A stretch of DNA of 56,122 bases. It comes from Roseobacter sp. Lineage in GTDB: Bacteria; Pseudomonadota; Alphaproteobacteria; Rhodobacterales; Rhodobacteraceae. Below the pieces are notes generated by a model, which had not been told where the DNA came from, did not search any database, and saw only the letters and a program-made list of their open reading frames with translations. Position numbers and translations under genes: made by a program. The stretch covers positions 1-56,122 of the forward strand of contig JADFAE010000008.1 of the NCBI GenBank assembly GCA_015665415.1. Reading direction: 5' to 3'. Every line of letters starts with the position of its first letter. Position 1 is the stretch's first letter. Below are positions 37,053 through 55,214 of this stretch, piece by piece.

Positions 37053-38072
37053 CTACAGATCGGCTAGGAACACAGTCTGGTTGTCTTCAGCAGAGCGCGC
37101 GATGGCCTCCAAGACTTCGATATTGTGGACCATTTCCTCTGGGCTGAACGGATAGGTCGACCGCCCCATCGCGGCATCCACAAAGGCTTCCAGATTTTCG
37201 GAGACCGTATCTTCCCAATCGAAAATGCTTTGCTGAACCGGGGTGCCTGTCCGGGATCGCAGATAGCGGACTTTCCCACCCGGAGTATCCGGGTGGGAAT
37301 CGTTGAGAACCTCAATCCATTCTTCGGTGCCAAAGACATGCATCCTGATGAAATGAGGCGTGTGTAACACGGCGCTGAGGGTTGCGGTCATACCCTGCTC
37401 AAACCCAAGCTGGGCAGTGACGACATCGCCGGTTTCCCAACCCAGGGAGCGGTCGGCTGTCAGGGCCTGAACTGTTTTGACACGGCCAAAATACGAGATC
37501 AGCAGATCGGTCAGGTGGATCCCCATAGCGGTCATGCCCGCCGCCGGAGAGACCGCTTTCGAGGTGCGCCAGTCATCCTTGGGGGTGCCAATCAGCTTGT
37601 CGTGGCTAAAGGCCGCTTCCGCATGCATCACGGTCCCAAGTTCTTGGTTGTCCAAGGCTTTCTTTAGGGCTTGCAGGCCGGGTTCAAATCGGCGCTCATG
37701 GCCGATCCCCAATTGCACCCCGGCCTCTTGGCAGGCCGCCATCGACCGGCGCGCACTGGCGGCGGTCAATCCCAACGGCTTTTCGCAGAACACGTGTTTA
37801 CCTGCTTTGGCGCAGGCAATGACCTGCTCTTCGTGCAGCGGGTTGGGGGTCGTCAGGATGGCCGCGTCTACGTCGTCCCGCGCTATGGCCTCTGCAAGAG
37901 ATGGGAAAATGGGCAGCCCCATTTCGCGGATCCCGGGATGGCTTACAGCGGCGGGTTCAACAACACCGGCTATTTTGATTGTGGCATGACCTTTCAGGCG
38001 GGTGGCAAAGTGCTTGCCCCACCAGCCAAAACCGACAATGACGACTGCGAAGGGTTCAGCCGGGGCGCTCAC
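37053..38072 (-). CDS. Gfo/Idh/MocA-family oxidoreductase
   Basis: This is a 339-residue protein when started at the GTG at 38072. That GTG overlaps the TGA stop of the upstream flavin reductase (GTGA), giving tight coupling; the ATG at 38132 would overlap by 64 bases. The NAD(P) fold VVIVGFGWWGKHFATRLKG is followed by ILTTPNPLHEEQVIACAKAGKHVFCEKPLGLT, with the EKP lysine, and a C-terminal alpha/beta domain (GIHLTDLLISYFG). The family oxidises or reduces sugars, inositols and other cyclic polyols. Pairing with a flavin reductase is unusual. Confidence 0.93.
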   Translation of the reverse strand: MSAPAEPFAVVIVGFGWWGKHFATRLKGHATIKIAGVVEPAAVSHPGIREMGLPIFPSLAEAIARDDVDAAILTTPNPLHEEQVIACAKAGKHVFCEKPLGLTAASARRSMAACQEAGVQLGIGHERRFEPGLQALKKALDNQELGTVMHAEAAFSHDKLIGTPKDDWRTSKAVSPAAGMTAMGIHLTDLLISYFGRVKTVQALTADRSLGWETGDVVTAQLGFEQGMTATLSAVLHTPHFIRMHVFGTEEWIEVLNDSHPDTPGGKVRYLRSRTGTPVQQSIFDWEDTVSENLEAFVDAAMGRSTYPFSPEEMVHNIEVLEAIARSAEDNQTVFLADL

Positions 38073-38581
38073 AGGCCAGCCCCGATCTGCGAGAACTGAC
38101 CTTTGTAGAACAACAGCGGCGCTTTTTCGCACCGGTTGAATTGGCGCACACGGCCCAGATAAATCTCATGATCCCCCCCGGGGATACGCTGTACGGTCTC
38201 GCATTCCAGAACCGCTGAGGCCTGGTTTAGAACGGGTGCACCGTTCAGGCCTGGCCGCCAGTCGACGTCGGCAAATTTGTCCTCGGATGGGCGGGAGAAG
38301 TTCAGCGCCAAATCCTTGGAATTCTCGCATAGGATATTGATGATGAAGGAAGCAGACGTGCGGAACGCGCTTAGGCTTGGCGCATTCAGCGACAGGTTCC
38401 ACGACACCAGCGGCGGGTCGAGGGAAACGGACGAAAACGAATTGGCCGCCAGCCCGATCGGGGCGCCATCGTCGGTCAGGGTCGTGACAACAGTCACCCC
38501 TGTTGCAAACTGGCCAAAGACATCGCGAAGGGCCAGCGGGTCGATGCGATCGACGGTGGTCTCTGTAGCAAGCGCGTTCAT
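38069..38581 (-). CDS. Flavin reductase (FMN-dependent monooxygenase partner)
   Basis: This 170-residue flavin-reductase-domain protein has LRDVFGQFATGVTVVTT, GLAANSFSSVSLDPPLVSWNL and FIINILCENSKDLALNFS, with the terminal GDHEIYLGRVRQF. Such HpaC/DszD-like enzymes reduce free FMN or FAD with NAD(P)H and pass it to a separate monooxygenase. The LLM-type monooxygenase encoded divergently 228 bases away is the obvious partner. It is coupled to a Gfo/Idh oxidoreductase by a GTGA overlap. Confidence 0.94.
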   Translation of the reverse strand: MNALATETTVDRIDPLALRDVFGQFATGVTVVTTLTDDGAPIGLAANSFSSVSLDPPLVSWNLSLNAPSLSAFRTSASFIINILCENSKDLALNFSRPSEDKFADVDWRPGLNGAPVLNQASAVLECETVQRIPGGDHEIYLGRVRQFNRCEKAPLLFYKGQFSQIGAGL

Positions 38582-38675
38582 GTTTTCATCCCACTTAAAC
38601 TGTTCGGCTCAAAATCTGCCCAAACATTCATCAAAAATGCCAGTTAAACAACTTATGAGATTTTATGTCGGCCTT

Positions 38676-38723
38676 CAGTTTTTCTGATGCCCAAGGTGGT
38701 GCGATTACCCATCTGAAAAACTG
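38676..38723. promoter_or_regulatory. Inverted repeat in the divergent monooxygenase/flavin-reductase promoter
   Basis: CAGTTTTTCTGATG (38676-38689) and CATCTGAAAAACTG (38710-38723) are inverted copies with one mismatch across 14 bases, separated by 20 bases. They lie centrally in the 228-base gap between the flavin reductase and the LLM monooxygenase, so one regulator could control both transcripts. The LysR protein encoded at 42524 is a candidate. Confidence 0.65.
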
Positions 38724-38809
38724 ATAACATGCATTAAAAACCATCATTATCGCTGCAGATCAAAGTCAGGCATGCTTTCGGAAAACCGTATTCAAGTCCG
38801 GAGAAGCAG

Positions 38810-39907
38810 ATGCAGTTATCCTTTTTCACAATGCCACTTCACCCCCTGGGTAAGCCGATCTGGCAAAGCATTCAGGAAGATCGCGAGGCCTTCATCCTGG
38901 CGGATGAATTGGGCTTTGTGGAAGGCTATTGCGGCGAACACACCACCGATCAGGCGGAGATCATCACCTCTACCGTGGCCTTTCTTGCCAGCCTGGCCTA
39001 CGAGACCAAGAATATCCGACTGGGGACCGGGACAGTGAACCTGCCCAATTCTCACCCGGCGCGGGTCGCCGCTGAAGTGGCGATGCTGGACCATATGCTG
39101 AAGGGCCGCTTTAACTTTGGCATCTCTCCCGGCGGGCTGCTGTCCGACGCCGAAGTTTTTGGGAACCTGGATAAAGACCGCAATTCCATGTTCATCGAGT
39201 GCATCAATATGGTGTTGCAGATCTGGGCGGGCAAGGCACCGTATAATCTGCAGGGCGAGCATTATTCGGTCTCAACCGAGAACACGATGATGCCGGAAAT
39301 CGGGCAGGGGGAAATCATCAAACCCTACCAAGATCCGCATCCGCCCATTGTTGGCACCGTGGTGGCACCCTATTCCAAAGGTGTCACGGCCATGGCGGCG
39401 CGCGGATGGGAGCCGATCTCAGCCAATTTCCTGTTGCCCAAATGGGTGGCGACCCATTGGCCCAAATATGCCGAAGGCTGTGCCCTGGGCGGGCGGGAGG
39501 CCCGGTTTGAAAACTGGAGCGTGGCCAAGAATCTGTGTGTTGCGGATGACATGGCAACCGCCAAACGCTATGCGCGGGATCCCGGCAGCCCCTATGTTTT
39601 GTATTTCAAGCAATTGTTGACCAAGCTGCGGTCAGGTGGGCGTCTGAACCTGTTTAAAGAAGACCAGAACATGGACGATGATGATGTGACGCTGGACTAT
39701 GTGCTGGATCGGCTGGTGATCTATGGTGATCCGTCAAGTGTTGCCGAACAGGTGTTGGCGTTCCAGGAACAAACCGGCCCCTTTGGCAAGCTGGTCTATG
39801 CCGGGCAGGATTGGACAGATTATGAGCTTGGGCGCAGGTCCATGATCCTGATGGCAGAACAGGTTCTGCCCAAAATCAACACGGCACTTGGGGCGGGCGA
39901 ACAATGA
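38810..39907 (+). CDS. LLM-class flavin-dependent monooxygenase
   Basis: This 365-residue bacterial-luciferase-family protein has MQLSFFTMPLHPLGKPIWQS, then ILADELGFVEGYCGEHTTD, IRLGTGTVNLPNSHPARVAAEVAMLDHMLKGRFNFGISPGGL and YGDPSSVAEQVLAFQEQTG. Members use reduced FMN and O2 to hydroxylate, cleave C-S bonds or carry out Baeyer-Villiger oxidation; the N terminus recalls limonene-monooxygenase-like proteins. It needs a flavin reductase, which is encoded divergently. The ATG follows GGAGAAGCAG. Its stop overlaps the next start (ATGA). Confidence 0.94.
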   Translation: MQLSFFTMPLHPLGKPIWQSIQEDREAFILADELGFVEGYCGEHTTDQAEIITSTVAFLASLAYETKNIRLGTGTVNLPNSHPARVAAEVAMLDHMLKGRFNFGISPGGLLSDAEVFGNLDKDRNSMFIECINMVLQIWAGKAPYNLQGEHYSVSTENTMMPEIGQGEIIKPYQDPHPPIVGTVVAPYSKGVTAMAARGWEPISANFLLPKWVATHWPKYAEGCALGGREARFENWSVAKNLCVADDMATAKRYARDPGSPYVLYFKQLLTKLRSGGRLNLFKEDQNMDDDDVTLDYVLDRLVIYGDPSSVAEQVLAFQEQTGPFGKLVYAGQDWTDYELGRRSMILMAEQVLPKINTALGAGEQ

Positions 39908-40719
39908 CAAATCTGACAACTGGCGTATTGACGACCGCGGATGGGACACGCATCTCGTTTCAAACAGAGGGGGCGGAGGGCGCCCCCTGGATCGTGCTCT
40001 CCAATTCCCTGGCCACAGACCGGGGGGTGTGGGATCCGCAGATCAGTGCTCTGACCAAATCGCGGCGTGTTCTGCGATATGACAGCCGTGGCCATGGCGA
40101 CAGCGACCCGGCGACGCCGCCTTACAACTTTGATCAACTTTCTGGGGATGTGGTTGATCTGATGGATTTCCTTGAGATCGAATGTGCCGAGTTTATGGGG
40201 ATTTCTCTGGGCGGAATGACGGGTCTGGCTTTGGCGATTGCCCATCCTGACCGTATCAGCAAATTGATTTGCTGCGATGCCCGCGCCGATGCACCCGAAG
40301 CTTACAAAGGCATTTGGGACGGCAATATTGCACGGCTGCATGACCAGGGAATCGAGGCGCTGAGCTCTACAACACTGGAGCGCTGGTTCTCGGCGGCCTT
40401 TCTTGCTGATCCTGCCAATGTCGACACATTGGCCGAGGTCCGGTCGATGATCCACAGGACCTCGGCGGCAGGCTATGAAGGGGTGGCGCGGTGCCTGCAA
40501 TCGCTGGATCTATTGGGGGATCTGCCCAAGCTCCGCTGCCCTGTCCTATATGTCACAGGAGAGTTTGATCCGGCGGCACCAGTTCCTGTCATGCAGGCGA
40601 TGTGTGATGTAACCGAAGGGGCCCAGTTTGCAGTGGTGGAAGATGCGGCGCATCTGTCGAACATCGAGCAGCCAGAGCGCTTTACCCGGATCATTGCAGG
40701 TTTTTTGAACCTTGAGTGA
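39904..40719 (+). CDS. Alpha/beta hydrolase, 3-oxoadipate enol-lactonase-like
   Basis: This 271-residue alpha/beta hydrolase has RYDSRGHGDSD (oxyanion region), the nucleophile elbow FMGISLGGMTG (Ser), YVTGEFDPAAPVPVM (acid) and VVEDAAHLSNIEQPERF (His). The overall pattern is that of PcaD enol-lactonases and related C-C or ester hydrolases. It is coupled by ATGA to the flavin monooxygenase, so it probably hydrolyses an ester or lactone made by that enzyme. No other pca gene is present, so beta-ketoadipate metabolism itself is not implied. Confidence 0.92.
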   Translation: MTNLTTGVLTTADGTRISFQTEGAEGAPWIVLSNSLATDRGVWDPQISALTKSRRVLRYDSRGHGDSDPATPPYNFDQLSGDVVDLMDFLEIECAEFMGISLGGMTGLALAIAHPDRISKLICCDARADAPEAYKGIWDGNIARLHDQGIEALSSTTLERWFSAAFLADPANVDTLAEVRSMIHRTSAAGYEGVARCLQSLDLLGDLPKLRCPVLYVTGEFDPAAPVPVMQAMCDVTEGAQFAVVEDAAHLSNIEQPERFTRIIAGFLNLE

Positions 40720-40747
40720 GTATTTGCGCGCCGATCCTACCTTGAAC

Positions 40748-41551
40748 ATGGGTAGTCCGATCCCCCGCTTGCCCCAGGTCATGGTGGCCCCAAACGGTGC
40801 CGAACGCAGCCGGTTGGATCACCCGGCATTGCCGGTTGGTCTAGAAGAGATCGTCAGCACAGCCCTGGCCTGCCAGGAGGCTGGAGCCGGTGGCCTGCAT
40901 GCGCATGTGCGCGATGACCAAGGCGCGCATGTGCTGGATGTGGGGCTCTACGGGGAATTGCTGGCGGAGCTGCACCACCGGGCTCCAGACCTGGTGGTGC
41001 AGGTCACGACAGAGGCGGTCGGCCGCTATACCCCGCAGCAGCAGCGCGCGCTGGTGCAAACACTCAGACCTAGCTTTGTCTCTATCGCGTTGCGGGAGAT
41101 GGTGGTTGGCGAAACGGAACACAGGTTGCGCAGTTTTTATCATTGGGCCCAAGATGCGGGCATTGGCGTGCAGCATATTCTCTATGCACCCGAAGAGATG
41201 ATGCAACTGGCAGACTATATCAAGACTGGGGTGATTCCGGCTCCGGACCTGGAGGTTCTGTTTGTGCTGGGCCGCTACACTGCCGGACAGCAAAGCAATA
41301 CCGCCGATCTGAAACCCTTTCTGAAGCTGAAACCACAGTGCTTTGAACAGGCTGACTGGACGCTCTGTGCTTTTGGCCAAGAGGAAACTGCCTGCCTGGT
41401 CGAGGCCGTTCGCCGGGGGGGCAAGGCGCGGATCGGGTTTGAAAACAACCTGCTCAACCGGGATGGATCAGTGGCTGTGGACAATGCCGCACGGGTGCGG
41501 GAGCTGATCGCAGAGCTGCAGAGACAGTGCCTGCTGGATCCGGAAAAATGA
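40748..41551 (+). CDS. BKACE-family beta-keto acid cleavage enzyme
   Basis: This is a 267-residue protein if started at ATG 40748 (MGSPIPRLPQVMVAPNGAERSR); an alternative TTG at 40712 overlaps the hydrolase gene. Neither has a clear ribosome-binding site. Family features are the zinc motif GLHAHVRDDQG, VQVTTEAVGRY, FVSIALREM, and the C-terminal GGKARIGFENNLLNRDG with the metal Glu. BKACE enzymes, first known as 3-keto-5-aminohexanoate cleavage enzyme, react a beta-keto acid with acetyl-CoA to give acetoacetate and a CoA thioester. The specific keto acid is unknown. Confidence 0.9.
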   Translation: MGSPIPRLPQVMVAPNGAERSRLDHPALPVGLEEIVSTALACQEAGAGGLHAHVRDDQGAHVLDVGLYGELLAELHHRAPDLVVQVTTEAVGRYTPQQQRALVQTLRPSFVSIALREMVVGETEHRLRSFYHWAQDAGIGVQHILYAPEEMMQLADYIKTGVIPAPDLEVLFVLGRYTAGQQSNTADLKPFLKLKPQCFEQADWTLCAFGQEETACLVEAVRRGGKARIGFENNLLNRDGSVAVDNAARVRELIAELQRQCLLDPEK

Positions 41552-42441
41552 TCGCCGACCTGGGCAATGTTCTGGCCCCGATCTTTGCCATCACCTTGAT
41601 CGGCTTTGCGATGGGACGATCCAAGGTTGCCCTAGATGCCGGAACGCTGAGCACCACGGTCATTCTGGTTGCCACACCTGCCTTGATCTTTTCCTCGCTG
41701 ACCTCCTTTGGGGTCACCCCTGCAATGCTGCTGGAGATGGCGGCAGCTGCAGTTCTTTGCATTTCCTTGTCAGCCGTACTGGGGTTGCTGACGGTGAAAT
41801 TCGCAGGGATGAGTGTGCAAAGCTTTCTGCCCAGCCTGATGCTGCCGAACTCGGGTAACATGGGCCTGCCGCTGGTCCTGCTCACCTTTGGCGATGAAGG
41901 TCTGAAACTGGGGGTCTCCTATTTCTTTGTTGTGGCGCTGATTCAACATTCCGTTGGGGTTTCTGTTGCGTCAGGCAGCATTCGTCTGGCCCAATTGGCA
42001 CGGCAACCGCTGATCTATGCGGTGGCCGGGGTGGTCTTTGTGGTCACCACCGGCGTGCAAGTGCCGCAGGCCGTTGTGACCACAACAGAGATCCTGGGCG
42101 GAATGATGATCCCGGCGATGCTGATCATGCTTGGCAATTCTCTGGCGGGGCTGACCATCTCAGATTTGAGGCCGGCCGTTGTGGTGGCCATCGCGCGGCT
42201 TTCGATCGGGGTGGTCGCGGCGCTTGCCGTGATCTGGATCCTGCAGCTGGAGGGGCAGGCTGCCGGTGCAGTCTTCCTGTTGTCCTCAATGCCGACGGCA
42301 ATTGTGACCTATGTCTATGCGCAAAGGTATCGCCCCGATTCCGGCAAGATCGCCGGAGCCGTTGTGGTCTCCACGGTTTTGACTTTTGCCTGTTTGCCGG
42401 TGTTGGTCTGGGCTGCAGCCCATATCGCGACGTCGGGATAA
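41548..42441 (+). CDS. AEC-family transporter (auxin-efflux-carrier-like)
   Basis: This is a 297-residue inner-membrane protein from the ATG at 41548, which overlaps the BKACE stop (ATGA). About ten hydrophobic helices are arranged in two halves, with PNSGNMGLPLVLLTFGDEGLKLG in the first and AGAVFLLSSMPTAIVTYVYAQRY in the second, as in malate/malonate-type AEC carriers. It probably moves a carboxylic acid or a pathway intermediate. The four-gene coupling from the monooxygenase onward suggests one transcript. Confidence 0.92.
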   Translation: MIADLGNVLAPIFAITLIGFAMGRSKVALDAGTLSTTVILVATPALIFSSLTSFGVTPAMLLEMAAAAVLCISLSAVLGLLTVKFAGMSVQSFLPSLMLPNSGNMGLPLVLLTFGDEGLKLGVSYFFVVALIQHSVGVSVASGSIRLAQLARQPLIYAVAGVVFVVTTGVQVPQAVVTTTEILGGMMIPAMLIMLGNSLAGLTISDLRPAVVVAIARLSIGVVAALAVIWILQLEGQAAGAVFLLSSMPTAIVTYVYAQRYRPDSGKIAGAVVVSTVLTFACLPVLVWAAAHIATSG

Positions 42442-42523
42442 CTGCCGGATTGGATTTATTCGTCTTTTGGTTGATACTGCCTGAACTGCCTTTGGCAGCC
42501 CCCTAGAACTGCGGCCTGGATCT

Positions 42524-43453
42524 ATGAAGAACGTCAAAATACAACACCTTCGTTTCTTTGTCGCCGTCTATGAGGAGCGTTCGATAACCAGTGCTGCGCA
42601 TCGGGTTCACGCCACGCAGTCCGGCGTCAGCATGCAGATCCGTGATCTGGAAACCATCTTGGGGCTGACCCTGTTTGAGCGCGCGTCGACAGGTGTAACC
42701 CCAACCAAGGCCGGGGACCGGATCTATTGGCGGGCAACGCGGGTGTTGCTCGAAGTGGATGAGCTGCAGGAAGATGTCGCCTCCCATACCGATGAACTAT
42801 ATGGCTGTGTGCGGGTTGGCATCATGCCGACCTTTGCAAGATCGGTTCTGGGCCCGGCCTTGATCCGTTTCTCCAAACAGAACCCCTTTGTCGACGTAAA
42901 GGTCACCGAAGGCTACAGCGTTGTGTTGACCGCCGCAGTGGCCAACGGCGAGTTGGATCTGGCTGTGGTGCCAGGTGGGGACACGCCGGTTGGCGTGCGC
43001 TCTTCTCATGTTGAAACCGATATTGAGGTCCTGATGCAAAAGCGGGGCAGCAGCGCGGCGGCGAGTGAGCCTGTCAATCTGGCCACCGCGCCGCCGCTCA
43101 AGATCATGCTGCCAGGGCCTGGCAATGCGCGGCGCTCAAAGATCGACCAGTACCTGAGTAACTTTTGCGCCTCCTCCCATTCGATCCTAGAGCTGGACAG
43201 TATGATGACCACTTTGGATATGGTGGATCGCGGCGAGTGGTCATCGGTGGTGCCCGGCTGTCTGTGTCTTGCAAGCCTGGATAACGCGGACATGCTGCTG
43301 TCGCCGATTTCGGATCCGCCTTTGACTGTAGATTATTTGCTGATCGAGCCTGCGACAAAAGCCCGAAGCAAGGCTGTTCAGGCCTTTGCCATCGAGCTGT
43401 GTGATGAGATCGAGCGCGGATGTCAAAAATGCAGAGACCATTTCTTTCCCTAA
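42524..43453 (+). CDS. LysR-family transcriptional regulator
   Basis: This 309-residue protein has an N-terminal helix-turn-helix (KIQHLRFFVAVYEERSITSAAHRVHATQSGVSMQIRDLETILGLTLFERASTGVTPT) and an effector domain from about residue 95 (GCVRVGIMPTFARSVLGPALIRF...). It lies 82 bases after the AEC transporter on the same strand and upstream of a TTT transporter operon, so it may control either. The conserved inverted repeat at 38676-38723 is a possible site. Confidence 0.93.
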   Translation: MKNVKIQHLRFFVAVYEERSITSAAHRVHATQSGVSMQIRDLETILGLTLFERASTGVTPTKAGDRIYWRATRVLLEVDELQEDVASHTDELYGCVRVGIMPTFARSVLGPALIRFSKQNPFVDVKVTEGYSVVLTAAVANGELDLAVVPGGDTPVGVRSSHVETDIEVLMQKRGSSAAASEPVNLATAPPLKIMLPGPGNARRSKIDQYLSNFCASSHSILELDSMMTTLDMVDRGEWSSVVPGCLCLASLDNADMLLSPISDPPLTVDYLLIEPATKARSKAVQAFAIELCDEIERGCQKCRDHFFP

Positions 43454-43780: not shown

Positions 43781-44746
43781 GTGATCGGGCGCGCACTGAA
43801 ATTTGGTGGCTATCAGGGCCATACTTCTGTTCATACACGGGGGGCACAGGCCTTCTGTGATGCGCTGGGCGATGGCCGCAATGTGGCGTTTTTGCAGAAT
43901 ATCACCACATCCGGGCGTCAAGCTTCGGAGTTGCTGACCTTGACCGAGGCCGGCACATTGGATGGCTGTTATTTTGCCTCCAGCTATCTGGCCGGGCGGG
44001 TGCCTGAGCTGGGGTTGTTTGATCAGCATTTTGCTGCTGCGGACCGACGGTTGGTATATGCTGTGCTGGATGGTCCCTTTGGTAGGCGCCTGGCAGAGAA
44101 GGTCGAGGCCGAGACTGGGTTCAAGGTGCTTGGATATTGGGACAATGGCCTGCGCCATATCTCCGTTGCCAATCGGCCGATACGCAGCCCACAGGATTGC
44201 CAGGGTCTCAGGATCCGGACATTGGCCAACGAGGCCCATCAACGGGTGTTCCGTGCCTTGGGCTTTGAGCCACAGGTGATCGACGTCCGTGATCTGGCGG
44301 CCGCGATTGAGGCAAAGCAGGTGGACGCGCAGGAAAACCCGCTGACCAATACCTATCAGATGGGACTGCATAAGACCCAGCGCCACATCGTGCTGACCGG
44401 GCATCTTCTGGGAGTCACGCTGGTGTTGTTCAACAGGGAAACGTTTCAATCCTGGTCGCAACCGGTCCAGGCCGCGGTCTCTGCCGCCTTGGCAGAGGCG
44501 ACAGCGAAACAACGTCTCTTTGCCCAGGAAGAAGAAGCCAAATGCGAAGCGGCCATGCGCCGCGATGGTGTCGAATTCACCACGTTATCCGCAGCAGAGC
44601 GGGCCAGGTTCGTCGCTGCCACCGCCGAGGAAGTGGCCGCGATGCGCGCAGGTTTGGATGTCGAAATACTAGAAATGTTCCACGAAGAGCTGGCCAGGGT
44701 TGCAGCCGAGCAATCGCCAGATCCGACCAAGATCAGGGAAGAATGA
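43781..44746 (+). CDS. TRAP-type DctP-family solute-binding protein lacking a signal peptide
   Basis: This 321-residue protein starts at a GTG (43781). The frame upstream is closed by a TGA at 43763, so it cannot extend. From the first residues it matches mature DctP proteins (LKFGGYQGHTSVHTRGAQAF; later LRIRTLANEAHQRVFRALGFEPQVID and VDAQENPLTNTYQMGLHKTQRHIVLTGHLLG). No signal peptide is present, so as encoded it would stay in the cytoplasm. No TRAP membrane subunits (DctQ/DctM) are near; its stop is directly followed by tctB. It may be a decayed transporter part or a repurposed intracellular binding protein. Confidence 0.82.
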   Translation: MIGRALKFGGYQGHTSVHTRGAQAFCDALGDGRNVAFLQNITTSGRQASELLTLTEAGTLDGCYFASSYLAGRVPELGLFDQHFAAADRRLVYAVLDGPFGRRLAEKVEAETGFKVLGYWDNGLRHISVANRPIRSPQDCQGLRIRTLANEAHQRVFRALGFEPQVIDVRDLAAAIEAKQVDAQENPLTNTYQMGLHKTQRHIVLTGHLLGVTLVLFNRETFQSWSQPVQAAVSAALAEATAKQRLFAQEEEAKCEAAMRRDGVEFTTLSAAERARFVAATAEEVAAMRAGLDVEILEMFHEELARVAAEQSPDPTKIREE

Positions 44747-45304
44747 ATGAAACGCGCAGAAACGAGCGAAGCTGAGGCCGAGCCGGTGGGAAGAGCAAAA
44801 CAAAGGCTGACCCCCGAACTGGCTATTGTGGCAGCGCTATTGGTGCTGGCAGGGTTGAGCGTCGCCTTCATCGGGGCGCTGGTTGCCCCGCCCAAAGTTC
44901 TGATGGGCAGATCGCTGACTGCGATCCCTCCAAACTTGTTTCCCCGTGTTGTGCTCTCGCTGCTGGCGGCTCTCTGCGCTCTCTTTCTGGTGTGGCGTAG
45001 CCGAAATCCGGATGCGGAAGTCTTTGACAGGTTCAACCTGCGGGGATGGGAACGGGGCCTTGCGCTGTTTGGGCTGATGATCTTTTACGCGATGTCGATG
45101 CAGCCCTTTGGCTTCCTGATTTCCTCGGCGCTGTCGATGGCGGCAATCTCTTGGTTGGCCGGCAATCGGAAGGTTTGGCAAATTGCCTGTCTCTCGCTTG
45201 TTGGACCGCCAGCTTTGTACCTACTGGCAACACGGGTTCTGGCGGTGTCCTTACCAGAGCTGAGTGCGATCGAATTTGCCTATTCACGGCTCTTGGGAGG
45301 TTGA
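44747..45304 (+). CDS. tctB: TTT-transporter small membrane subunit
   Basis: This 185-residue protein has a polar ~22-residue N terminus and about four hydrophobic helices (LAIVAALLVLAGLSVAFIGALVA; VVLSLLAALCALFLVW; GLALFGLMIFYAM; later VGPPALYLLATRVLAV). That is the pattern of TctB, the small subunit of tripartite tricarboxylate transporters. Its ATG directly follows the TGA of the DctP-like gene. It works with TctA and TctC to import carboxylates. Confidence 0.88.
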   Translation: MKRAETSEAEAEPVGRAKQRLTPELAIVAALLVLAGLSVAFIGALVAPPKVLMGRSLTAIPPNLFPRVVLSLLAALCALFLVWRSRNPDAEVFDRFNLRGWERGLALFGLMIFYAMSMQPFGFLISSALSMAAISWLAGNRKVWQIACLSLVGPPALYLLATRVLAVSLPELSAIEFAYSRLLGG

Positions 45305-45345
45305 AGTCTCAATGATTGCTGATCCAAAATTCAAAGGAAATACCA

Positions 45346-46827
45346 ATGCTTGATCAGTTTCTTGCTGGCTTTGCCATGGCCATGCGGCTTGATACTTTTG
45401 TCTTGATGGGGGCGGGCCTGTTTGGCGGCATGCTGGTGGGAGCCCTGCCTGGGTTCACCACATTGATGGCGATGGCGATCCTGCTGCCGATCTCCTTCTT
45501 TCTTGACCCGATTGTAGGAATTCCGTTCCTGCTGGGCGTCTACAAGGGGGGTATTTTTGGCGGCAGTATCCCGGCGATCCTGGTGTCGATGCCCGGGACC
45601 GGCGCCGCCGTGGCCACATCACGCGACGGCTATGCTCTGACTAAACAGGGAAAATCCCGCAAGGCGCTCGACATGGCGTTGTTTTCTTCTGTGTTTGGCG
45701 ACACAGCCAGCGATATCTTCACCATCTTCATGATCTTCCCGATTGCCTATCTGGTGATGCAATTTGGCCCGCCAGAGCTGTTTGCAGTCTTGTTGCTGAG
45801 CCTTGTCATCATTGCAGCCACATCGGGGTCCAGTCCGGTAAAAAGCCTGATCATGATGGCTGTTGGTCTGTGGCTGTCCTTTATCGGGACTGATCCGCTG
45901 GGCGGGGTGGAGCGCTTTACCTTTGGGCTGTTTGATCTCAAATCAGGCATTCCTTTGCTGCCGATGTTGATTGGTGTCTTTGCGATCCCCGAAATCGCCG
46001 CAGTGGTGATCCGCAATGAAAAGGTTCAGCAGTTGGCGGCCTTGATGGGGGAGCGACTGACCCGCAAGGAATTCAAGGCGAGCTTTCGGACGATCTGTCG
46101 GTCAACCGTGATTGGCACCGGCATCGGCATCATCCCGGGTCTGGGGCAGGTCGTGGCGGCGATGATGGGGTATTCAGCGGCCAAAAATGCCTCTGATCAG
46201 CCTGAAACCTTTGGCGAAGGAAATCTGGAAGGCGTTGCTGCGGCAGAGGCGGCCAACAACGCTGTCAATGGGCCGACGATGGTGCCGTTGCTGACGCTGG
46301 GCATCCCCGGCGACAATGTGACAGCAATCCTGCTGGGGGCCTTTGTCGCCCAGGGGCTGCGCCCTGGCCCGCAGCTGTTCGAAGAGCAGGGTGCCACGGT
46401 CTTTGCCATTCTGATTGCGATGGTCTTTGCCAACCTGATGTTCCTGGCCATCGGCTATCTGTCGATCCCGTTCTTTTCCCGACTGGTCCGGATCAAGACT
46501 TCGGTACTGGTGCCGGTTGTGATCATGTTTGCCTTTGCCGGCGCCTATGTCTTCCGGTCCGACACCTTCGATCTGCTGATGCTGGTTGCCTTTGGTGTCT
46601 TTGGCTTGATCGCCAAAGCCGGCAAGTTCGACGTGATGCCAATGGTGATGGGCTTCATTCTTGGCCCGCCGATGGAATACGCCTTTGGCCAGACCATCGC
46701 CATGGGCAATGGAACCACGCTGGCCTTCCTCTTTGATGAGCGCCTCGCCGCTTTGGGGATTTTGACGGCCACACCAGTGATTGGGTTTCTTCTTTGGAGG
46801 CGGATGCGGTCCGTACCTTCTGAGTAA
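45346..46827 (+). CDS. tctA: TTT-transporter large membrane subunit
   Basis: This is a 493-residue protein from the ATG at 45346 (AAAGGAAA ribosome-binding site). It has about twelve helices and the TctA signatures: GGMLVGALPGFTTLMAMAILLPISF, YKGGIFGGSIPAILVSMPGTGAA and TVIGTGIGIIPGLGQVVAAMMGY. The segment GVAAAEAANNAVNGPTMVPLLTLGIPGDNVTAILLGAF is also typical. It forms the ion-coupled translocation channel in the inner membrane. The substrate of this system is not determined by the sequence. Confidence 0.96.
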   Translation: MLDQFLAGFAMAMRLDTFVLMGAGLFGGMLVGALPGFTTLMAMAILLPISFFLDPIVGIPFLLGVYKGGIFGGSIPAILVSMPGTGAAVATSRDGYALTKQGKSRKALDMALFSSVFGDTASDIFTIFMIFPIAYLVMQFGPPELFAVLLLSLVIIAATSGSSPVKSLIMMAVGLWLSFIGTDPLGGVERFTFGLFDLKSGIPLLPMLIGVFAIPEIAAVVIRNEKVQQLAALMGERLTRKEFKASFRTICRSTVIGTGIGIIPGLGQVVAAMMGYSAAKNASDQPETFGEGNLEGVAAAEAANNAVNGPTMVPLLTLGIPGDNVTAILLGAFVAQGLRPGPQLFEEQGATVFAILIAMVFANLMFLAIGYLSIPFFSRLVRIKTSVLVPVVIMFAFAGAYVFRSDTFDLLMLVAFGVFGLIAKAGKFDVMPMVMGFILGPPMEYAFGQTIAMGNGTTLAFLFDERLAALGILTATPVIGFLLWRRMRSVPSE

Positions 46828-46891
46828 TGTCCTGGCAGAGGCATCACCTGCCAGGTTCTGAATAAGACAACGATGCAAAAGGGAGGAAGAT

Positions 46892-47863
46892 ATGTTCAAA
46901 ACATCGATCAAACGCGCCGCCACATTGGCAGCCGCCGCCGGATTGGCAGTGACAGCGTCTTTGGGGGTGGCCCAGGCCGAATACCCGGAAAAACCAATCA
47001 CCATGGTTATTCCATTGGGAGCAGGGGGCTCGCATGATCTGAATGCACGGGTGATCACCTCAATTATCCCGCAGTATCTGGACCAGGCAATGATTGTGCG
47101 TCTGACCCCAGGGTCCGGCGGTCAGAAAGGCACCCAGGAAGTCGCCAAGGCGCCGGCCGATGGCTACACCTTGCTGTTCACGCATAACTACATCGACATG
47201 TTGCAGCAGCACGTTGAAAACCTGCCTTATGATCCGATGGAGGATTTCATCCCGATCGCCCGGGTGAACTATGCCCCGGCTGGTGTCGTTGTGCGCGCTG
47301 ACAGCCCCTATCAGACCTTCGAGGATCTGGTCACAGCCGCCAAGGAAAACCCCAATGCTATCCGGATGTCACATTCCGGCAATTGGGGCGCCTTCTTTGT
47401 CCCTGCTGCGCAAATCATGAAAGCGCGGGACTTTAGCCTGAACCTGGTGCCCTATAAAGGCGGCGGACCCTCTATGCAGGCCCTGCTGGCAGGCGATTCC
47501 GATGTCACCATGGGCTTTCCTTCGACCTTGGGGTCGTTGCTGGATGCGGGTGAGATTCGGGTCCTGGCGACCGCGGGTGCCGAGCGCATGTTCGAGGATG
47601 TTCCAACCCTCGCTGAGGTCGGCGTAGAAGGCGACATCGGCTTTATGCACCGTGTGGTTCTGGCCCCCAAGGGGACGCCGGATGATGTGGTGGCAAAACT
47701 GACCGAGGCTTTCAATGCGCTGGTCGAAGACAAAACCTTCAACCGTATGATGAGTCGGCTGAACGAAACCATCGATCTGATTGATGGAGACGGCTATCAG
47801 GTTATGCGCCAAGAGCAGGACCTCGCCTATAAAGACTTGGTCAACGAGCTGACGTCGCAATAA
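46892..47863 (+). CDS. tctC: TTT-transporter periplasmic solute-binding protein (Bug family)
   Basis: This 323-residue protein has a signal peptide (MFKTSIKRAATLAAAAGLAVTASLGVAQA|EYPEKP). The mature part shows Bug/TctC features: YPEKPITMVIPLGAGGSHDLNARV, GSGGQKGTQEVAKAPADGYTLLFTH, LVPYKGGGPSMQALLAGDSDVTMG and a C-terminal GTPDDVVAKLTEAF. It binds a carboxylate in the periplasm and delivers it to TctAB. It ends the operon, followed by a strong terminator. Confidence 0.95.
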   Translation: MFKTSIKRAATLAAAAGLAVTASLGVAQAEYPEKPITMVIPLGAGGSHDLNARVITSIIPQYLDQAMIVRLTPGSGGQKGTQEVAKAPADGYTLLFTHNYIDMLQQHVENLPYDPMEDFIPIARVNYAPAGVVVRADSPYQTFEDLVTAAKENPNAIRMSHSGNWGAFFVPAAQIMKARDFSLNLVPYKGGGPSMQALLAGDSDVTMGFPSTLGSLLDAGEIRVLATAGAERMFEDVPTLAEVGVEGDIGFMHRVVLAPKGTPDDVVAKLTEAFNALVEDKTFNRMMSRLNETIDLIDGDGYQVMRQEQDLAYKDLVNELTSQ

Positions 47864-47870
47864 AAAAGAT

Positions 47871-47932: not shown

Positions 47933-48988
47933 TCACAACGGCGCGACACCAAGATCCTGCGCCAATTCGGTCAGCGCGGTATTCAGCGCAGCTGATAAAG
48001 GAATTCCATGTTCAATTCTGTCGCGGGTCACCTTGGCCAGCCGCTCGCCAGGCAGCCGAATACTGTCAAACCCCGGCAGACGCGGCGAGGATTTCATCTG
48101 CGCCCAAATCCGGTCGACATCAGATTTGAACTCCTTCGGGTCGGCAAAGGCCTTGATATCCAGGGCAATGATGAAATGACCGGTGTTGGTTGTGGTTTTG
48201 CTGTCGGCGTTAAAGTCGATAACCTCGCGGCCAAAGGCGGCCCCGTTCAAGGTTCCGGCCAGCAGTCCAAAGATCAACGACAGGCCATAGCCCTTGGCAC
48301 CGCCGATGGGCAGAAGAAAGCCCTCGGAGGCTCGATTGGGGTCGGTCAGAGGCTGGCCGGATCTGTTGATCATCCAACCCTCGGGAATGGGCTCGCCGCG
48401 CTGGGCTGCGGTTTTGACCTTGCCGTAGGCCGCCACCGTTGTGGCCATGTCCAGGATGATTGGCGGGTAGCTGGCCGAGGGGATGCAAACCGCAATCGGA
48501 TTGGTGCTGAGCAGCATTTCGGTGCCACCCCAGGGGGGCATGTGATTGGCACTGCCAACCGCGGCATAAATCCCGATCATGTCCTGCTCTGTTGGCATCG
48601 AAGCATAAAGCGAGGCCGGCCCGGCATGGTTCGAGTGCCGAGCGCCAACCCAGGCGACGCCGGTGGTCTTGGCCTTTTGCATAGCCAGTTGGGTGGCATG
48701 GTGCATCACCAGATGCCCCAGGCCATTGCCGCCATCGATCAGTGCGGTGGCGCTGCGCTCTTGCAGGGTGCAAATGCGCGCGTTCACCTCCAGCCCGCCG
48801 GCCTGGATGCGGCGGATATATTGCGGCAACCGGAATACGCCATGGCCATCCTGCCCGATGAGGTCCGCCCGGGCCATCAGGCCTGCGGCCCGATCCGCGT
48901 CGCCCTCTGCCATGCCACAGGAGCAAAAGCAGCGGGCAATGAAGTCCCGCAGATTGTCATATGAAGTTGTTACGGGGGAATTGGGCAT
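47933..48988 (-). CDS. Malate/L-lactate-type dehydrogenase (Ldh2 family)
   Basis: This 351-residue NAD(P)-dependent 2-hydroxyacid dehydrogenase (PF02615) has MARADLIGQDGHGVFRLPQYIRRI near the N terminus, VGARHSNHAGPASLYA with the catalytic His, STNPIAVCIPS, LDMATTVAAYGKV and GAKGYGLSLIFGLLAG. Family members act on malate, lactate, sulfolactate, ureidoglycolate, delta1-piperideine-2-carboxylate and similar. It converges on the TTT transporter, whose substrate it may oxidise or reduce; this is positional inference. Confidence 0.94.
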   Translation of the reverse strand: MPNSPVTTSYDNLRDFIARCFCSCGMAEGDADRAAGLMARADLIGQDGHGVFRLPQYIRRIQAGGLEVNARICTLQERSATALIDGGNGLGHLVMHHATQLAMQKAKTTGVAWVGARHSNHAGPASLYASMPTEQDMIGIYAAVGSANHMPPWGGTEMLLSTNPIAVCIPSASYPPIILDMATTVAAYGKVKTAAQRGEPIPEGWMINRSGQPLTDPNRASEGFLLPIGGAKGYGLSLIFGLLAGTLNGAAFGREVIDFNADSKTTTNTGHFIIALDIKAFADPKEFKSDVDRIWAQMKSSPRLPGFDSIRLPGERLAKVTRDRIEHGIPLSAALNTALTELAQDLGVAPL

Positions 48989-49041: not shown

Positions 49042-49446
49042 ATGCCAAACGGGTTCTCCGTGAGATACGATCAAGTCAGTGTGTTCAGCAGGGGAGACGG
49101 GGTGGAAACCCGGTTGCTGGTGGGGAAGGAAAACGCAGCGGATACGCCGTTTACCAGTGGCACTACTGTTTTCCCTCCCGGCTGTGGCGCGCCGCTGCAT
49201 TCCCATAATTGCGCCGAGCAAGTGACGATTTTGCAGGGCACAGCGGAGGCCATGATTAATGGTAAAACCAACGTGTTGGGCCCGCTGGACACATCTTTTG
49301 TTCCCGCAAATGCGCCGCATTATTTTCGCAATACAGGCGCTGAACCTCTGATCATCCTGTGGATCTATGGCGCGCAGGACGTGACCCGGACCTTTACCGA
49401 AACCGGCGAAACCGTGCCTCATATGTCGGCGCGCGATCAGGTCTGA
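49042..49446 (+). CDS. Cupin-domain protein
   Basis: This 134-residue single-domain cupin has the first metal motif GCGAPLHSHNCAEQVTILQG (His, His, Glu) and a second motif region SFVPANAPHYFRNTGAEPL with a His. This arrangement binds Fe, Mn or Zn. It is divergent from the Ldh-family dehydrogenase with a 53-base gap. Small cupins of this kind may be isomerases, dioxygenases or sensors; no specific function can be given. Confidence 0.85.
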   Translation: MPNGFSVRYDQVSVFSRGDGVETRLLVGKENAADTPFTSGTTVFPPGCGAPLHSHNCAEQVTILQGTAEAMINGKTNVLGPLDTSFVPANAPHYFRNTGAEPLIILWIYGAQDVTRTFTETGETVPHMSARDQV

Positions 49447-49474: not shown

Positions 49475-49936
49475 TCAGGTCTTCAGCCGGTATTGGTCGG
49501 GGATCGGCAGCGGCGCATTGGGGCCGTCGATGAATTCGACGGTGCAAAACAGCAATTCCGTGTCACCGATGTTTTCAACCGAATGCAGCATGCAATCCTC
49601 GCTGCCATAGACAAAGTGGCGGGTTTCTCCGGCGAAATGGGTGACATCACGGATCTCCCCAGAGCAGAAATATCCACGGGCCTTGCCGTCTGCGAGGGCG
49701 GACCAAAAGTAGGAATTGACATGGCGGTGAAAGGCGCAGCGCTTGCCTGGCGCAATACGCAGATGCCAGACACGCAGCCTGTCAGTCTCAGAAACCAGAA
49801 CTGAGCCGACAACGCCGTTGTCCAGATGCTGCAGCATTTCCTGATGCAGGCCCTCGGGCCAATGGGCAAAGGCGGCGGGGTCGGTGGCCATTTCAACATG
49901 GTCGGGGCCATGGCTGAGCGGGGATGTATGGGGCAT
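49475..49936 (-). CDS. Cupin-like protein
   Basis: This is a 153-residue protein from the ATG at 49936, preceded by CAGGAAAG. An in-frame TTG at 49981 overlapping the upstream stop (TTGA) is possible but less likely. The central RVWHLRIAPGKRCAFHRHVNSYFWSAL has a cupin-type His-x-His, followed by a glycine-rich strand (GKARGYFCSGEI) and a second His region (ETRHFVYG; CMLHSVENIGDTELLF). Probably metal-dependent. It follows the DapA-family gene on the same strand and likely belongs to that operon. Confidence 0.78.
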   Translation of the reverse strand: MPHTSPLSHGPDHVEMATDPAAFAHWPEGLHQEMLQHLDNGVVGSVLVSETDRLRVWHLRIAPGKRCAFHRHVNSYFWSALADGKARGYFCSGEIRDVTHFAGETRHFVYGSEDCMLHSVENIGDTELLFCTVEFIDGPNAPLPIPDQYRLKT

Positions 49937-49977
49937 GGGGGCTTTCCTGACAGAAACGGCACGGGCCGCGAATGCAA

Positions 49978-50889
49978 TCAAACTTGGTTCAGTTGGTCCA
50001 GATCTGCGCGCAGCTCCGCTGCCTGATCCGGGCTGAGGTTGGTCAGCGGCGGTGCCATGCGGGTCCAGCTGTCATCACCGCTGCGCCAGGCTTCGATTTG
50101 CTTCATCGCGGCCATCAACGGGTATTTTGAGGCCACCGCCCGACCCGCTTGCACGGCCGCCATCGCTGCGTCTCGTTCCGTGCCTTGGGTGGCGCGCAGG
50201 GCCGCCTGTGCCAATGTGCCAAAGGCATTTGTGGATCCTGAGATAATGCCAGCGGTTCCGATGGACAGGCCTTGCCACAGCATCGCTTCGGAGGAGGGGT
50301 AGATGTCAAAATCCTCGGCAATTCCACCGGTGGCGGAGATGATTGCGCGGCTTTGTTCAAAATCGCCGCTGCTGTCTTTCAGACCGGCGATGATGGGGCC
50401 AAAGGCCTGGCGCAGTCGCACCACCAGTTCCGGCGAGATCGGTGTCTGGGACATCTGCGGGAAATGATAGAGATAGACCCGCAGATCTTCGCGACCGACC
50501 TGTTCGATCAGCCGTGCATAGGCCGCAAACAAACCATCGTCAGAGACGTTTTTGTAAAAATAGGGCGGCAGCACAAGCACATTGCAAAACCCGGCATCAA
50601 CTGCGGCGCGGGTCAGCGCGATACTATCGCCGATTGCCGGCGCACCAGTGCCAAATATGACCTGTTCTGATTGAAAGCCCGCCGCCTGAAAGGCCTGCGG
50701 CAGCGCCAGCCTGTCCTGCAAGGCTATGGAGGTGCCTTCCCCAGTGGTGCCCATCGGCGCAACACCGTCGCAACCGCCATCGGTAAGCAGATGACGGCAA
50801 TAGGAGGTCAGTTTGGCGGCATCGAGCGTCCCGTCTGCCTGGAAGGGTGAAATCGCCGCCGCATAGATGCCGCGCTTTGCCTTGGTCAT
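49978..50889 (-). CDS. DapA/NanA-family aldolase or lyase
   Basis: This 303-residue class I aldolase of the dihydrodipicolinate synthase/N-acetylneuraminate lyase family has GVAPMGTTGEGTSIAL (pyruvate-carboxylate loop), the catalytic Tyr in VYLYHFPQM, and the Schiff-base Lys in IAGLKDSSGDFEQS. It acts on pyruvate or a 2-keto-3-deoxy acid. With a zinc alcohol dehydrogenase and cupin in one operon, sugar-acid or hydroxy-acid breakdown is more likely than lysine synthesis. Its ATG overlaps the dehydrogenase stop (ATGA). Confidence 0.92.
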   Translation of the reverse strand: MTKAKRGIYAAAISPFQADGTLDAAKLTSYCRHLLTDGGCDGVAPMGTTGEGTSIALQDRLALPQAFQAAGFQSEQVIFGTGAPAIGDSIALTRAAVDAGFCNVLVLPPYFYKNVSDDGLFAAYARLIEQVGREDLRVYLYHFPQMSQTPISPELVVRLRQAFGPIIAGLKDSSGDFEQSRAIISATGGIAEDFDIYPSSEAMLWQGLSIGTAGIISGSTNAFGTLAQAALRATQGTERDAAMAAVQAGRAVASKYPLMAAMKQIEAWRSGDDSWTRMAPPLTNLSPDQAAELRADLDQLNQV

Positions 50890-52085
50890 TGCTGTACCCC
50901 CTTGTCAGATTGGTCGCCTTCGGGCTTTGGCTGTCGCAGTGAAACAACGACCTTGATGGCGTCATCAATACGCTCGCGCGCATAGCGCAGCGCGGTTGGC
51001 AGCTCTTCCAGTGAGAACGTATGCGTGTGGATCAAGCTGGCATCAAAGCGCTTTTCGGCCATGAAGGCCATGGCGCGATGGGTGGCTGAGCGACCTTCGC
51101 CGCGAATGCCGTAAAGATAGATATTGTTGACCGCCAGGGCCCCCAAGTCAAACGCGACAGCAGTCTTTGGAAAAGCGGCCAGGCAAATCCGCCCGCCACG
51201 GTTGGTCATCTGTACCGCCTGGTTGACCGTGGCCTCTGTGCCGGCGCAGTCGACAACATAATCCGCGCCTTTGCCGGTGATCTCTTTGATCCGGGCCACC
51301 ACGTCTTCTGAATTGGGATTGATCACGATGTCGGCGCCCAGCTCTCGGCCGATCTGGTTGCGATTGTCGCGGGTGCCGACCAGCACCACCGGCGCGGCAC
51401 CCAGCGATTTGGCGACGGCCACGGCCAGCAATCCGATGGGTCCTGGCCCAATGACAACGACGCTTTCGCCCGCCACCAGGCCGCCCAGTTCGGTCAGCCC
51501 GTACATAGAGGTTCCGGCGGTCACCACCAGGGTGGCCTCTTCGTCGCTCATATGGTCGGGCACCCGGATCATGGTGTTGATATTGTTCACTGCATATTCG
51601 GCAAAACCGCCATTGGTGGTGAACCCATTGGCGCGGTGGCCCTTGTCTTGGGTGCCGTAGTTGAGCCCGTAGTTGTGGCAGGAGGTATACATGCCCATGC
51701 GGCAGCGTTTGCATTGGCCGCACCCGGCGTGGATCTCGACTGTGACCCGGTCACCGACTTCAAACTCGTCCACCCCAGGACCCAGTGCTGCGATGGTGCC
51801 CATATATTCATGACCAGGGGTGAAGCCCTTGTTGAAGGGCGCGCCACCTTCGATCAGCGCCGGGGTGCCATAGGTCAGGATTTCCAGGTCGGTGGCGCAG
51901 ATGGCGACGGCATCGATCCTGACCAGCGCCTCGGCGCGGCCGGGGCGCGGGATCTCTTTTGTCACCAGTGTGATCTCTTCGGGATCACCCAGAACCCAGG
52001 CCTTCATTGTCTGCGGCAGCGGCATCTCTGGTGCGGTGGTGACGCCCTCCCATTGAGGATTGATCTTGGTCTCGGTGGCGCTCAT
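50886..52085 (-). CDS. Zinc-dependent alcohol dehydrogenase (MDR family)
   Basis: This 399-residue medium-chain dehydrogenase, about 50 residues longer than usual, has an N-terminal extension to about residue 24. Catalytic zinc residues are in AICATDLEI and TPGHEYMG; the structural zinc is held by the four Cys of CGQCKRCRMGMYTSC. The NAD(P) fold is VVVIGPGPIGLLAVAVAKSLGA. It resembles threonine/sorbitol-type dehydrogenases. It is the first gene of a minus-strand operon (ADH, DapA-family, cupin) and is divergent from a FadR-type GntR gene. Confidence 0.94.
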   Translation of the reverse strand: MSATETKINPQWEGVTTAPEMPLPQTMKAWVLGDPEEITLVTKEIPRPGRAEALVRIDAVAICATDLEILTYGTPALIEGGAPFNKGFTPGHEYMGTIAALGPGVDEFEVGDRVTVEIHAGCGQCKRCRMGMYTSCHNYGLNYGTQDKGHRANGFTTNGGFAEYAVNNINTMIRVPDHMSDEEATLVVTAGTSMYGLTELGGLVAGESVVVIGPGPIGLLAVAVAKSLGAAPVVLVGTRDNRNQIGRELGADIVINPNSEDVVARIKEITGKGADYVVDCAGTEATVNQAVQMTNRGGRICLAAFPKTAVAFDLGALAVNNIYLYGIRGEGRSATHRAMAFMAEKRFDASLIHTHTFSLEELPTALRYARERIDDAIKVVVSLRQPKPEGDQSDKGVQQ

Positions 52086-52232: not shown

Positions 52233-52246
52233 ATTGGTTGACCAAT
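52233..52246. promoter_or_regulatory. GntR-type operator overlapping the regulator's start codon
   Basis: ATTGGTTGACCAAT has six-base perfect inverted arms around a TG centre, matching the TGGT-NN-ACCA form common for FadR-subfamily GntR sites. Its last two bases are the AT of the GntR start codon at 52245, suggesting direct autorepression. Confidence 0.65.
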
Positions 52247-54225: not shown

Positions 54226-54260
54226 CGCACCTGGCAGTGCATAAACAGAGGAGGGGTGAG

Positions 54261-55121: not shown

Positions 55122-55214
55122 TTTGCAGATCCTCTATCGGTTTCAGCCTCTTTGTGCGACGCCGCGCGGTGGGGGTGGCCCAGGTGACGGCCCTTTGTAA
55201 ATTTGGAGCCCGGC

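Follow-up and report, generated by a model that had tools for sequence, protein, structure and literature searches.

In fold, the closest described relatives of the monooxygenase treated here are the diketocamphane monooxygenases, type II Baeyer-Villiger monooxygenases of the camphor pathway on the CAM plasmid of Pseudomonas putida. The protein in question is a luciferase-like monooxygenase (LLM), 25% identical to them, from a 56,122-nucleotide stretch of Roseobacter sp. DNA (contig JADFAE010000008.1; hereafter the window). We conclude with moderate confidence that its gene is part of a single catabolic island of patchy distribution, spanning about 37053-55121, for an anionic, oxygenated, probably cyclic compound; six core genes form the oxygenase end of this island. 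According to the available part of an account of the camphor pathway (PMC6352141), its lactones open spontaneously and its reductases are encoded remotely, whereas here genes for a flavin reductase (FR), a Gfo/Idh oxidoreductase and a hydrolase adjoin the LLM gene. A proposal for the use of recalcitrant marine dissolved organic matter by SAR202 follows a like logic of dehydrogenase, type II Baeyer-Villiger monooxygenase, lactone, and lactonase or esterase; the available part of that work has 152 paralogues in five partial genomes, with SDR dehydrogenases, and describes no operon (PMC5395668), in contrast to the co-inherited island with Gfo/Idh proteins and transporters found here. The progesterone LLM of Caenibius tardaugens (pdc cluster) is likewise bacterial, and Baeyer-Villiger activity was shown there; compared by description, it differs in its steroid substrate, and the part of the report available mentions no BKACE, Gfo or PcaD-like partner (PMC12239570).

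Three further systems resemble single parts of the island. Its hydrolase shares the catalytic triad of the 3-oxoadipate enol-lactonase PcaD and matches the solved enzyme 2xua, but it falls below the equivalog cut-off and no other pca-type gene is annotated in the island. Its DUF849 protein shares family, zinc ligands and an Arg with the beta-keto acid cleavage enzymes (BKACEs) Kce and BKACE15, and differs from them by a Glu to Ile and an Asp to Asn replacement. Like the inositol pathway, the island pairs an IolG-like Gfo protein with an IolM-like alcohol dehydrogenase (ADH), both far below their NCBIfam cut-offs, but the inositol pathway with the scyllo-inosose 3-dehydrogenase IolM presumably includes no LLM. 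A limited search of the open-licence literature, mostly of titles and abstract openings, found no description of the island's gene set, and nothing on an LLM with a BKACE or on DUF849 with Rhodobacterales. Our direct observations are the gene content and conservation of the island, the co-occurrence of the LLM with two Gfo/Idh proteins (Gfo-1 and Gfo-2), the LLM fold and the catalytic residues.

The six-gene core and its co-inheritance

The core consists of the following features.

37053..38072, minus strand: Gfo/Idh/MocA oxidoreductase 1 (Gfo-1; PF01408 82 bits, PF22725 70.7 bits)
38069..38581, minus strand: FR, probable FMNH2 supplier (PF01613 136 bits)
38582..38809: divergent promoter region between FR and LLM, with a conserved ATCATT[AT]TC element
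38810..39907, plus strand: LLM, type II Baeyer-Villiger-like (Bac_luciferase Pfam match)
39904..40719, plus strand: PcaD-like alpha/beta hydrolase (TIGR02427 234.2 bits; 2xua E 1.4e-55; triad in 55/55)
40748..41551, plus strand: BKACE (DUF849) family protein whose subgroup lacks the catalytic Glu (PF05853 180.8 bits)
41548..42441, plus strand: AEC (auxin efflux carrier) family permease (PF03547 69.1 bits)

The six open reading frames (ORFs) lie where the original prediction had placed them, two on the minus and four on the plus strand, and all score above the Pfam gathering score of their families (GFO_IDH_MocA, Flavin_Reduct, Bac_luciferase, Abhydrolase_1, BKACE and Mem_trans). The overlaps it described can be read in the DNA: ATGA between LLM and hydrolase at 39904 and between BKACE and AEC at 41548, and a GTGA that couples FR to Gfo-1; no ATGA joins hydrolase and BKACE. 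Because of these junctions the AEC gene probably starts at 41548 and not at the listed GTG 41527, and Gfo-1 probably starts at about 38072, the listed ORF extending to 38132. For the BKACE-family gene the listed start is a TTG at 40712, but the ATG at 40748 is more likely to be the true one. Of the 12 intergenic stretches between FR and LLM, 8 contain the element ATCATT[AT]TC, compared with a mean of 0.025 and a maximum of 1 in single-base shuffles; the element was picked after the sequences had been viewed, and part of the excess is due to shared descent, since the stretches come from related species.

The evidence that most directly ties these genes together comes from 244 genomes of the window's order, taken as one draw for all searches given the shared settings, with only the top candidates scored in each genome. 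The LLM (E<=1e-120) occurs in 13 of them, one per genus. Gfo-1 (1e-90) was found in 12 genomes and Gfo-2 (1e-110) in 8, and every one of these is an LLM carrier (P 1.8e-19 and 4.6e-12, respectively, both ignoring phylogeny). Two genomes retain LLM and Gfo-1 at a distance, about 2 Mb apart in G189 and on different contigs in G105; the Gfo-1 there lies with LysR and FR genes. Six of the seven genomes with the island's DapA-family gene (1e-90) carry the LLM, G111 being the exception; all three that have the hydrolase at a strict cut-off are LLM carriers too. A comparison gene from outside the island (GMC) was found in 21/220 genomes, three of them LLM carriers (P 0.09, assuming that all 13 carriers were sampled). 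BKACE homologues are far commoner (84/244 at E<=1e-50); the BKACE gene lies <=3 kb from the LLM gene in all seven other genomes whose LLM is >=76% identical to the window's, and homologues are absent from five genomes with an LLM at 63-66%. The co-occurrence of LLM, Gfo-1, Gfo-2 and DapA across the 244 genomes led us to reject a chance neighbourhood. The single pathway of the original prediction, which failure to co-occur elsewhere would have spoken against, is thus upheld in that LLM and Gfo stay together; one pathway for LLM, Gfo-1 and Gfo-2 is strongly supported, and their neighbours belong to it with less certainty. An unusual expansion of the LLM family was also seen in one genome, G046, with 33 matches at E<=0.001 in 2.8 Mb (77% complete).

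A second sample was built around the LLM gene itself. The scan of genome contigs kept the best 80 of 93 relatives, and with extra genomes there were 89 LLM loci besides the window, 87 of them in the family table (L052, with an over-long ORF, and L110 were left out). This sample appears to overlap in part with the genome sample and is not independent of it; G142 and L075, for example, are apparently the same record (100% genes). LLMs of >=75% identity occur in 44 loci, of which 34 belong to Rhodobacterales and 7 to Hyphomicrobiales, with a single locus each from Cellvibrionales, Geminicoccales and Chromatiales; another 29 loci have LLMs of 60-75%. Loci cut by contig ends are retained in both counts, and about 8.5 kb is present on both sides in 33 and 22 of them. 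In the 44 loci tblastn found FR in 39, the hydrolase in 38, BKACE in 29, Gfo in 27 and AEC in 21; clustering by family gave LysR 40, hydrolase 38, FR 35, BKACE 29, Gfo 27, OsmC 22, TctA 22 and AEC 20. The 29 more distant loci have LysR in 18, Gfo in 17, the hydrolase in 14, FR in 9 and BKACE in none, with a DctM-type TRAP gene in 11 and a CoxL-type molybdenum hydroxylase plus PuuE-like protein in 6. Below that, in 12 loci at 45-60% and two lower still, partners are only scattered. At least three gene orders occur among the LLM loci.

Proteins of the OsmC, peroxiredoxin or CMD families accompany the LLM in 30/44 loci of the >=75% clade and 11/29 of the 60-75% loci, a hint of a peroxide by-product of the pathway. 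The OsmC-family gene, absent from the window, lies between hydrolase and BKACE in relatives (L035:11977-12495, L037:11935-12414 and others). In the >=75% clade OsmC (22/44) and an AhpC/TSA peroxiredoxin (6/44) never share a locus, as if one replaced the other. None of the three families was found for the window island, and the window's genome gave no OsmC match at 1e-5 in a search run without a positive control.

Fold and catalytic residues of the core enzymes

The model of the LLM has its clearly best fold match among type II Baeyer-Villiger monooxygenases (VIA-align comparison), closest over the full length to the diketocamphane enzymes. Such enzymes draw on a separate flavin reductase, and an FR gene is the divergent neighbour of the LLM gene in the window as well as present in the 39 clade loci counted above. 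The two-component flavin monooxygenase of the original prediction is supported. Baeyer-Villiger chemistry is plausible for this LLM on the strength of the model, and dehydrogenation, oxygen insertion and lactone opening would make a plausible front end. On a plasmid of Phaeobacter sp. G2 (L137), a 41% relative of the LLM adjoins ribB and genes for a flavin reductase and a riboflavin kinase, an arrangement suggestive of co-regulated flavin supply.

The hydrolase keeps the PcaD triad (S101, D222, H250) in 55 of 55 members, and its top solved match is the 3-oxoadipate enol-lactonase 2xua (E 1.4e-55), so that its description as PcaD-like stands. Gfo-1 likewise keeps the GxGxxG motif, the EKP lysine and the His (G34, G36, G39, K118 and H206 in 46/46). 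Four residues before the catalytic His it has Ala in 40, Gln in 4 and Gly in 2 of the 46 members, and never Asp, which we take to be the inositol dehydrogenase motif at that position.

The DUF849 protein is a family member by domain (PF05853 180.8 bits against a cut-off of 24.8), with a best NCBIfam score of 102.5 against a cut-off of 382. Its residues were checked in 45 aligned members and are numbered from the listed TTG start at 40712. Those that are presumably the zinc ligands are kept, H63 and H65 in 45/45 and E244 in all 43 rows with a residue there. R240, the counterpart of chain position 232 in 2y7d, is kept in 43/43 such rows; in our reading it is the Arg that was once put forward as the base, R254 of BKACE15 and presumably R226 of Kce. 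The catalytic Glu is missing. Its place is held by I156, an Ile in 45/45 members, which aligns with the second Glu of the PE.E motif in solved BKACEs (Glu in four of the five printed chains, the fifth not being printed there). Two alignments concur on which Glu this is. The Glu opposite I156 in 2y7d is at chain position 149, which, with a presumed tag offset of 6, would be Glu143 (E143) of Kce. In 8rio profile position 141 pairs with chain position 170, and 142 would pair with 171 if chain position equals residue number. At that residue of BKACE15, according to the part of the report available, the E171L variant was inactive and E171D retained 5% (PMC11961710). The Asp that follows the metal-binding Glu is Asn in 43/43 members of the subgroup. 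At what we assume to be the position of Kce Glu14 (residue 31 from the TTG start) the subgroup has Arg in 43/45 and Thr in a single member, the window protein being the sole one with Glu. Three other residues, E101, S124 and E129, are invariant and could take over the role of the missing Glu. The protein is thus a family member that lacks the expected catalytic residue, and beta-keto acid cleavage is doubtful and not safe to assume, because the Glu is replaced by an invariant Ile. The BKACE cleavage of the original prediction fares poorly on this ground and also in distribution, since the gene accompanies the LLM only in the >=75% clade (29/44, against 0/29 at 60-75%).

Members of this DUF849 subgroup also occur apart from the LLM. 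Among 15 fetched loci of that kind (the top of the list, a non-random choice), ten have an adjoining gene of a class III aminotransferase family (Pfam on one member), namely L117, L119-L125, L128 and L134; an eleventh, L115, was added by eye, and several appear by eye to have a TAXI-like TRAP system.

The wider island

The island is probably about 18 kb long (about 37053-55121), and the six-gene coordinates of the original prediction probably stop short of its end. Downstream of the core the window holds the following genes.

42524..43453, plus strand: LysR regulator (PF00126, PF03466; accompanies the LLM in 40/44 loci)
43781..44746, plus strand: DctP-type solute-binding protein, before tctBA (PF03480 191.2 bits; homologue in 13/80 LLM loci)
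44747..45304, plus strand: TctB (PF07331 65.2 bits)
45316..46827, plus strand: TctA (PF01970 438.1 bits)
46892..47863, plus strand: TctC solute-binding protein (PF03401 158.7 bits)
47933..48988, minus strand: Ldh2-family (malate/lactate/sulfolactate-type) dehydrogenase (PF02615 371.6 bits; 15/80 LLM loci)
49042..49446, plus strand: cupin A (PF07883, Cupin_2, 56.9 bits; 15/80 LLM loci)
49475..49981, minus strand: cupin-like B (ORF and codon composition; named by eye from the sequence)
49978..50889, minus strand: DapA-family aldolase or dehydratase (TIGR00674 104.5 bits, below cut-off; 3b4u E 1.4e-45)
50886..52085, minus strand: zinc-type ADH, Tdh/IolM-like (TIGR00692 207.3 bits, below cut-off)
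52245..52922, plus strand: GntR regulator 1 (NCBIfam NanR-like 76.6 bits, below cut-off)
53146..54225, plus strand: Gfo/Idh/MocA oxidoreductase 2 (Gfo-2), iolG-like (TIGR04380 119.5 bits, below cut-off)
54237..55121, plus strand: HIBADH-family (tartronate-semialdehyde-reductase-like) reductase (TIGR01505 134.6 bits, below cut-off)
55203..55961, plus strand: GntR regulator 2, possibly outside the island (HutC/PhnF-like, about 76 bits; with 1/80 LLM loci)

TctA, TctB and TctC all score above the gathering scores of PF01970, PF07331 and PF03401, and the tripartite tricarboxylate transporter is complete. The segment 43781-47863 combines one TctAB membrane pair with binding proteins of two kinds, a DctP-type (TRAP) gene before tctB and tctA and tctC after them; in relatives' loci a DctP homologue is often directly 5' of tctB. 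Beyond 47863 membership of the island is what we infer for the genes listed. Four-base overlaps, seen in the coordinates, join the cupin-like B, DapA and ADH genes. Cupin-like B gave no NCBIfam match at 1e-10, and copies of it with 67-74% identity occur in five stretches that also carry DapA (L143, L144, L148, L050 and L059). The ADH also scores 190.6 bits against the NCBIfam scyllo-inosose 3-dehydrogenase family, again below the cut-off. The top NCBIfam match of the Ldh2-family protein is L-sulfolactate dehydrogenase (257 bits, under the cut-off of 500), and the HIBADH-family protein has a weak match to sulfolactaldehyde reductase as well (58.7 bits). In its view of the gene set the original prediction was right that the six genes are linked, but incomplete, in that a second Gfo/Idh protein, an ADH, a DapA-family enzyme and transporters appear to belong.

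Proposed pathway and competing explanations

On the one-island reading, an anionic, oxygenated, probably cyclic compound would be imported by the DctP/TctBAC and AEC systems, and NAD(P)-dependent dehydrogenases (the two Gfo/Idh proteins and the zinc ADH) would turn ring hydroxyls into ketones. The LLM with FR would then insert oxygen (Baeyer-Villiger), the PcaD-like serine hydrolase would open the resulting lactone or enol-lactone, and the open chain would pass to central metabolites by way of the DUF849 zinc protein, the DapA-family enzyme and the HIBADH-family and Ldh2-family dehydrogenases. This order of steps and the class of substrate are our reconstruction. That the substrate is anionic is suggested by the transporter types, and from the remaining genes one can only guess at an anionic ring compound with hydroxyl groups; to name a substrate was rejected as unproved. 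Acetyl-CoA-dependent beta-keto acid cleavage is possible but not favoured. For ring opening to give a beta-keto acid, the LLM would, we think, need to act on a cyclic 1,3-diketone or the corresponding enol; an IolM-like ADH and a pair of Gfo/Idh proteins would be fitting enzymes for this, but their family scores are far below the equivalog cut-offs. A more specific version, which we think unlikely as a whole, is an undescribed marine pathway for a hydroxylated, anionic ring compound, in which Gfo/Idh and ADH enzymes yield a cyclic diketone. Its ring would be opened by the LLM as a type II Baeyer-Villiger enzyme, and the Glu-less DUF849 protein would catalyse a zinc-dependent C-C cleavage or hydrolysis of a new kind, perhaps without CoA. 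Acids resembling cyclitols, or cyclohexenones like the gadusol/mycosporine core, would be speculative candidates for the substrate.

Several observations weigh against the one-island reading. The make-up of the island is fluid, because many presence changes are needed on a quick tree (minimum 8 for BKACE, 12 for Gfo-1, 8 for the hydrolase and 10 for OsmC, by neighbourhood presence and with many open forks). All five LLM partners occur together by tblastn in only 16/44 loci of the >=75% clade; the set recurs in whole or in part. Partners change among the 60-75% loci, where the CoxL-type hydroxylase and PuuE-like protein appear. Within flanks of <=10 kb, homologues of Gfo-2, Ldh2, cupin A and TctC are each found in 15/80 LLM loci, and those of ADH, DapA, GntR-1 and HIBADH each in 4/80. 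Genome G111 has TctA, DctP, ADH and DapA homologues without the LLM, and in G094, which has the LLM, FR, hydrolase, BKACE and LysR genes, the cut-offs used gave neither Gfo-1 nor Gfo-2. The co-occurrence P values take no account of phylogeny, although the 13 LLM carriers represent 13 genera. As to the chemistry, the nearest solved LLM relative is 25% identical and a shared fold is not proof of Baeyer-Villiger activity, as LLMs also desulfonate, epoxidise and open N-heterocycles, and the hydrolase misses the NCBIfam PcaD equivalog cut-off (TIGR02427, 234.2 against 255.85).

A less likely alternative is that two separate pathways adjoin here, an LLM-Gfo-hydrolase unit and a sugar-acid unit of TctABC, Ldh2, ADH, DapA, Gfo-2 and HIBADH. 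The genes of G111 (with TctB- and TctC-like genes by eye) fit this, as does genome G282, where Gfo-2, HIBADH, Ldh2 and DctP lie on a contig (L145) other than that of the LLM, and the second half is near the LLM in few loci; however, Gfo-2 never occurs without the LLM (8/8 among the 244 genomes), and the units adjoin in several arrangements. The full pathway of the original prediction, in which ketone, lactone and beta-keto acid lead to a true BKACE that with acetyl-CoA gives acetoacetate and an acyl-CoA, is in our view unlikely. The PF05853 score, the retained zinc ligands and R240 and the proximity of the gene to the LLM in 7/7 genomes would fit it, but the Ile and Asn replacements (with E171L inactive in the available part of the BKACE15 report, PMC11961710), the NCBIfam score and a family distribution much wider than the pathway, with an aminotransferase neighbour in 10/15 LLM-less loci, argue the other way.

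It is less likely still that the LLM opens an N-heterocycle as RutA or other ring-opening LLMs do, with a RutD-like hydrolase. The idea draws on the 60-75% loci, 6/29 of which have the CoxL-type molybdenum hydroxylase and PuuE (allantoinase)-like protein; four of them, and also L140 and L142, have proteins akin to 2,6-dihydroxypyridine hydroxylase, the L140 protein having 2vou as its top solved match (168 bits). Varying mixes of these three kinds of gene occur in L031, L032, L130-L133, L140 and L142 (loci with LLMs at 60-75%, or partner loci from those genomes), which suggests an N-heterocycle pathway there. For the window, in contrast, the three families were not found in 28801-50000, nor in the 44 loci of the >=75% clade, and the annotated island genes include no amidase, deaminase or ammonia gene. 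RutD and RutF scores also fall short of the Rut equivalog cut-offs (89.5 against 238.5 and 66.2 against 254.75), and the structural match of the LLM is to Baeyer-Villiger enzymes. Finally, a SsuD/SmoC-like LLM that desulfonates or ether-cleaves a marine sulfonate or sugar acid, with Ldh2 and HIBADH handling a C3 fragment, would accord with the sulfolactate and sulfolactaldehyde matches of those two proteins and with TctABC-type uptake, but we consider it very improbable.

Whatever its exact reaction, the DUF849 subgroup is widespread, in 84 of the 244 genomes (E<=1e-50), and its annotation as a beta-keto acid cleavage enzyme is doubtful from the residues of the 45 members. The genome-wide coupling of LLM and Gfo gives partner enzymes to an orphan monooxygenase clade. 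The Rhodobacterales are a mostly marine order in which key parts of the island are carried or missing together, and if the one-island reading is true, the island would be a bounded route by which they open ring compounds of dissolved organic matter.

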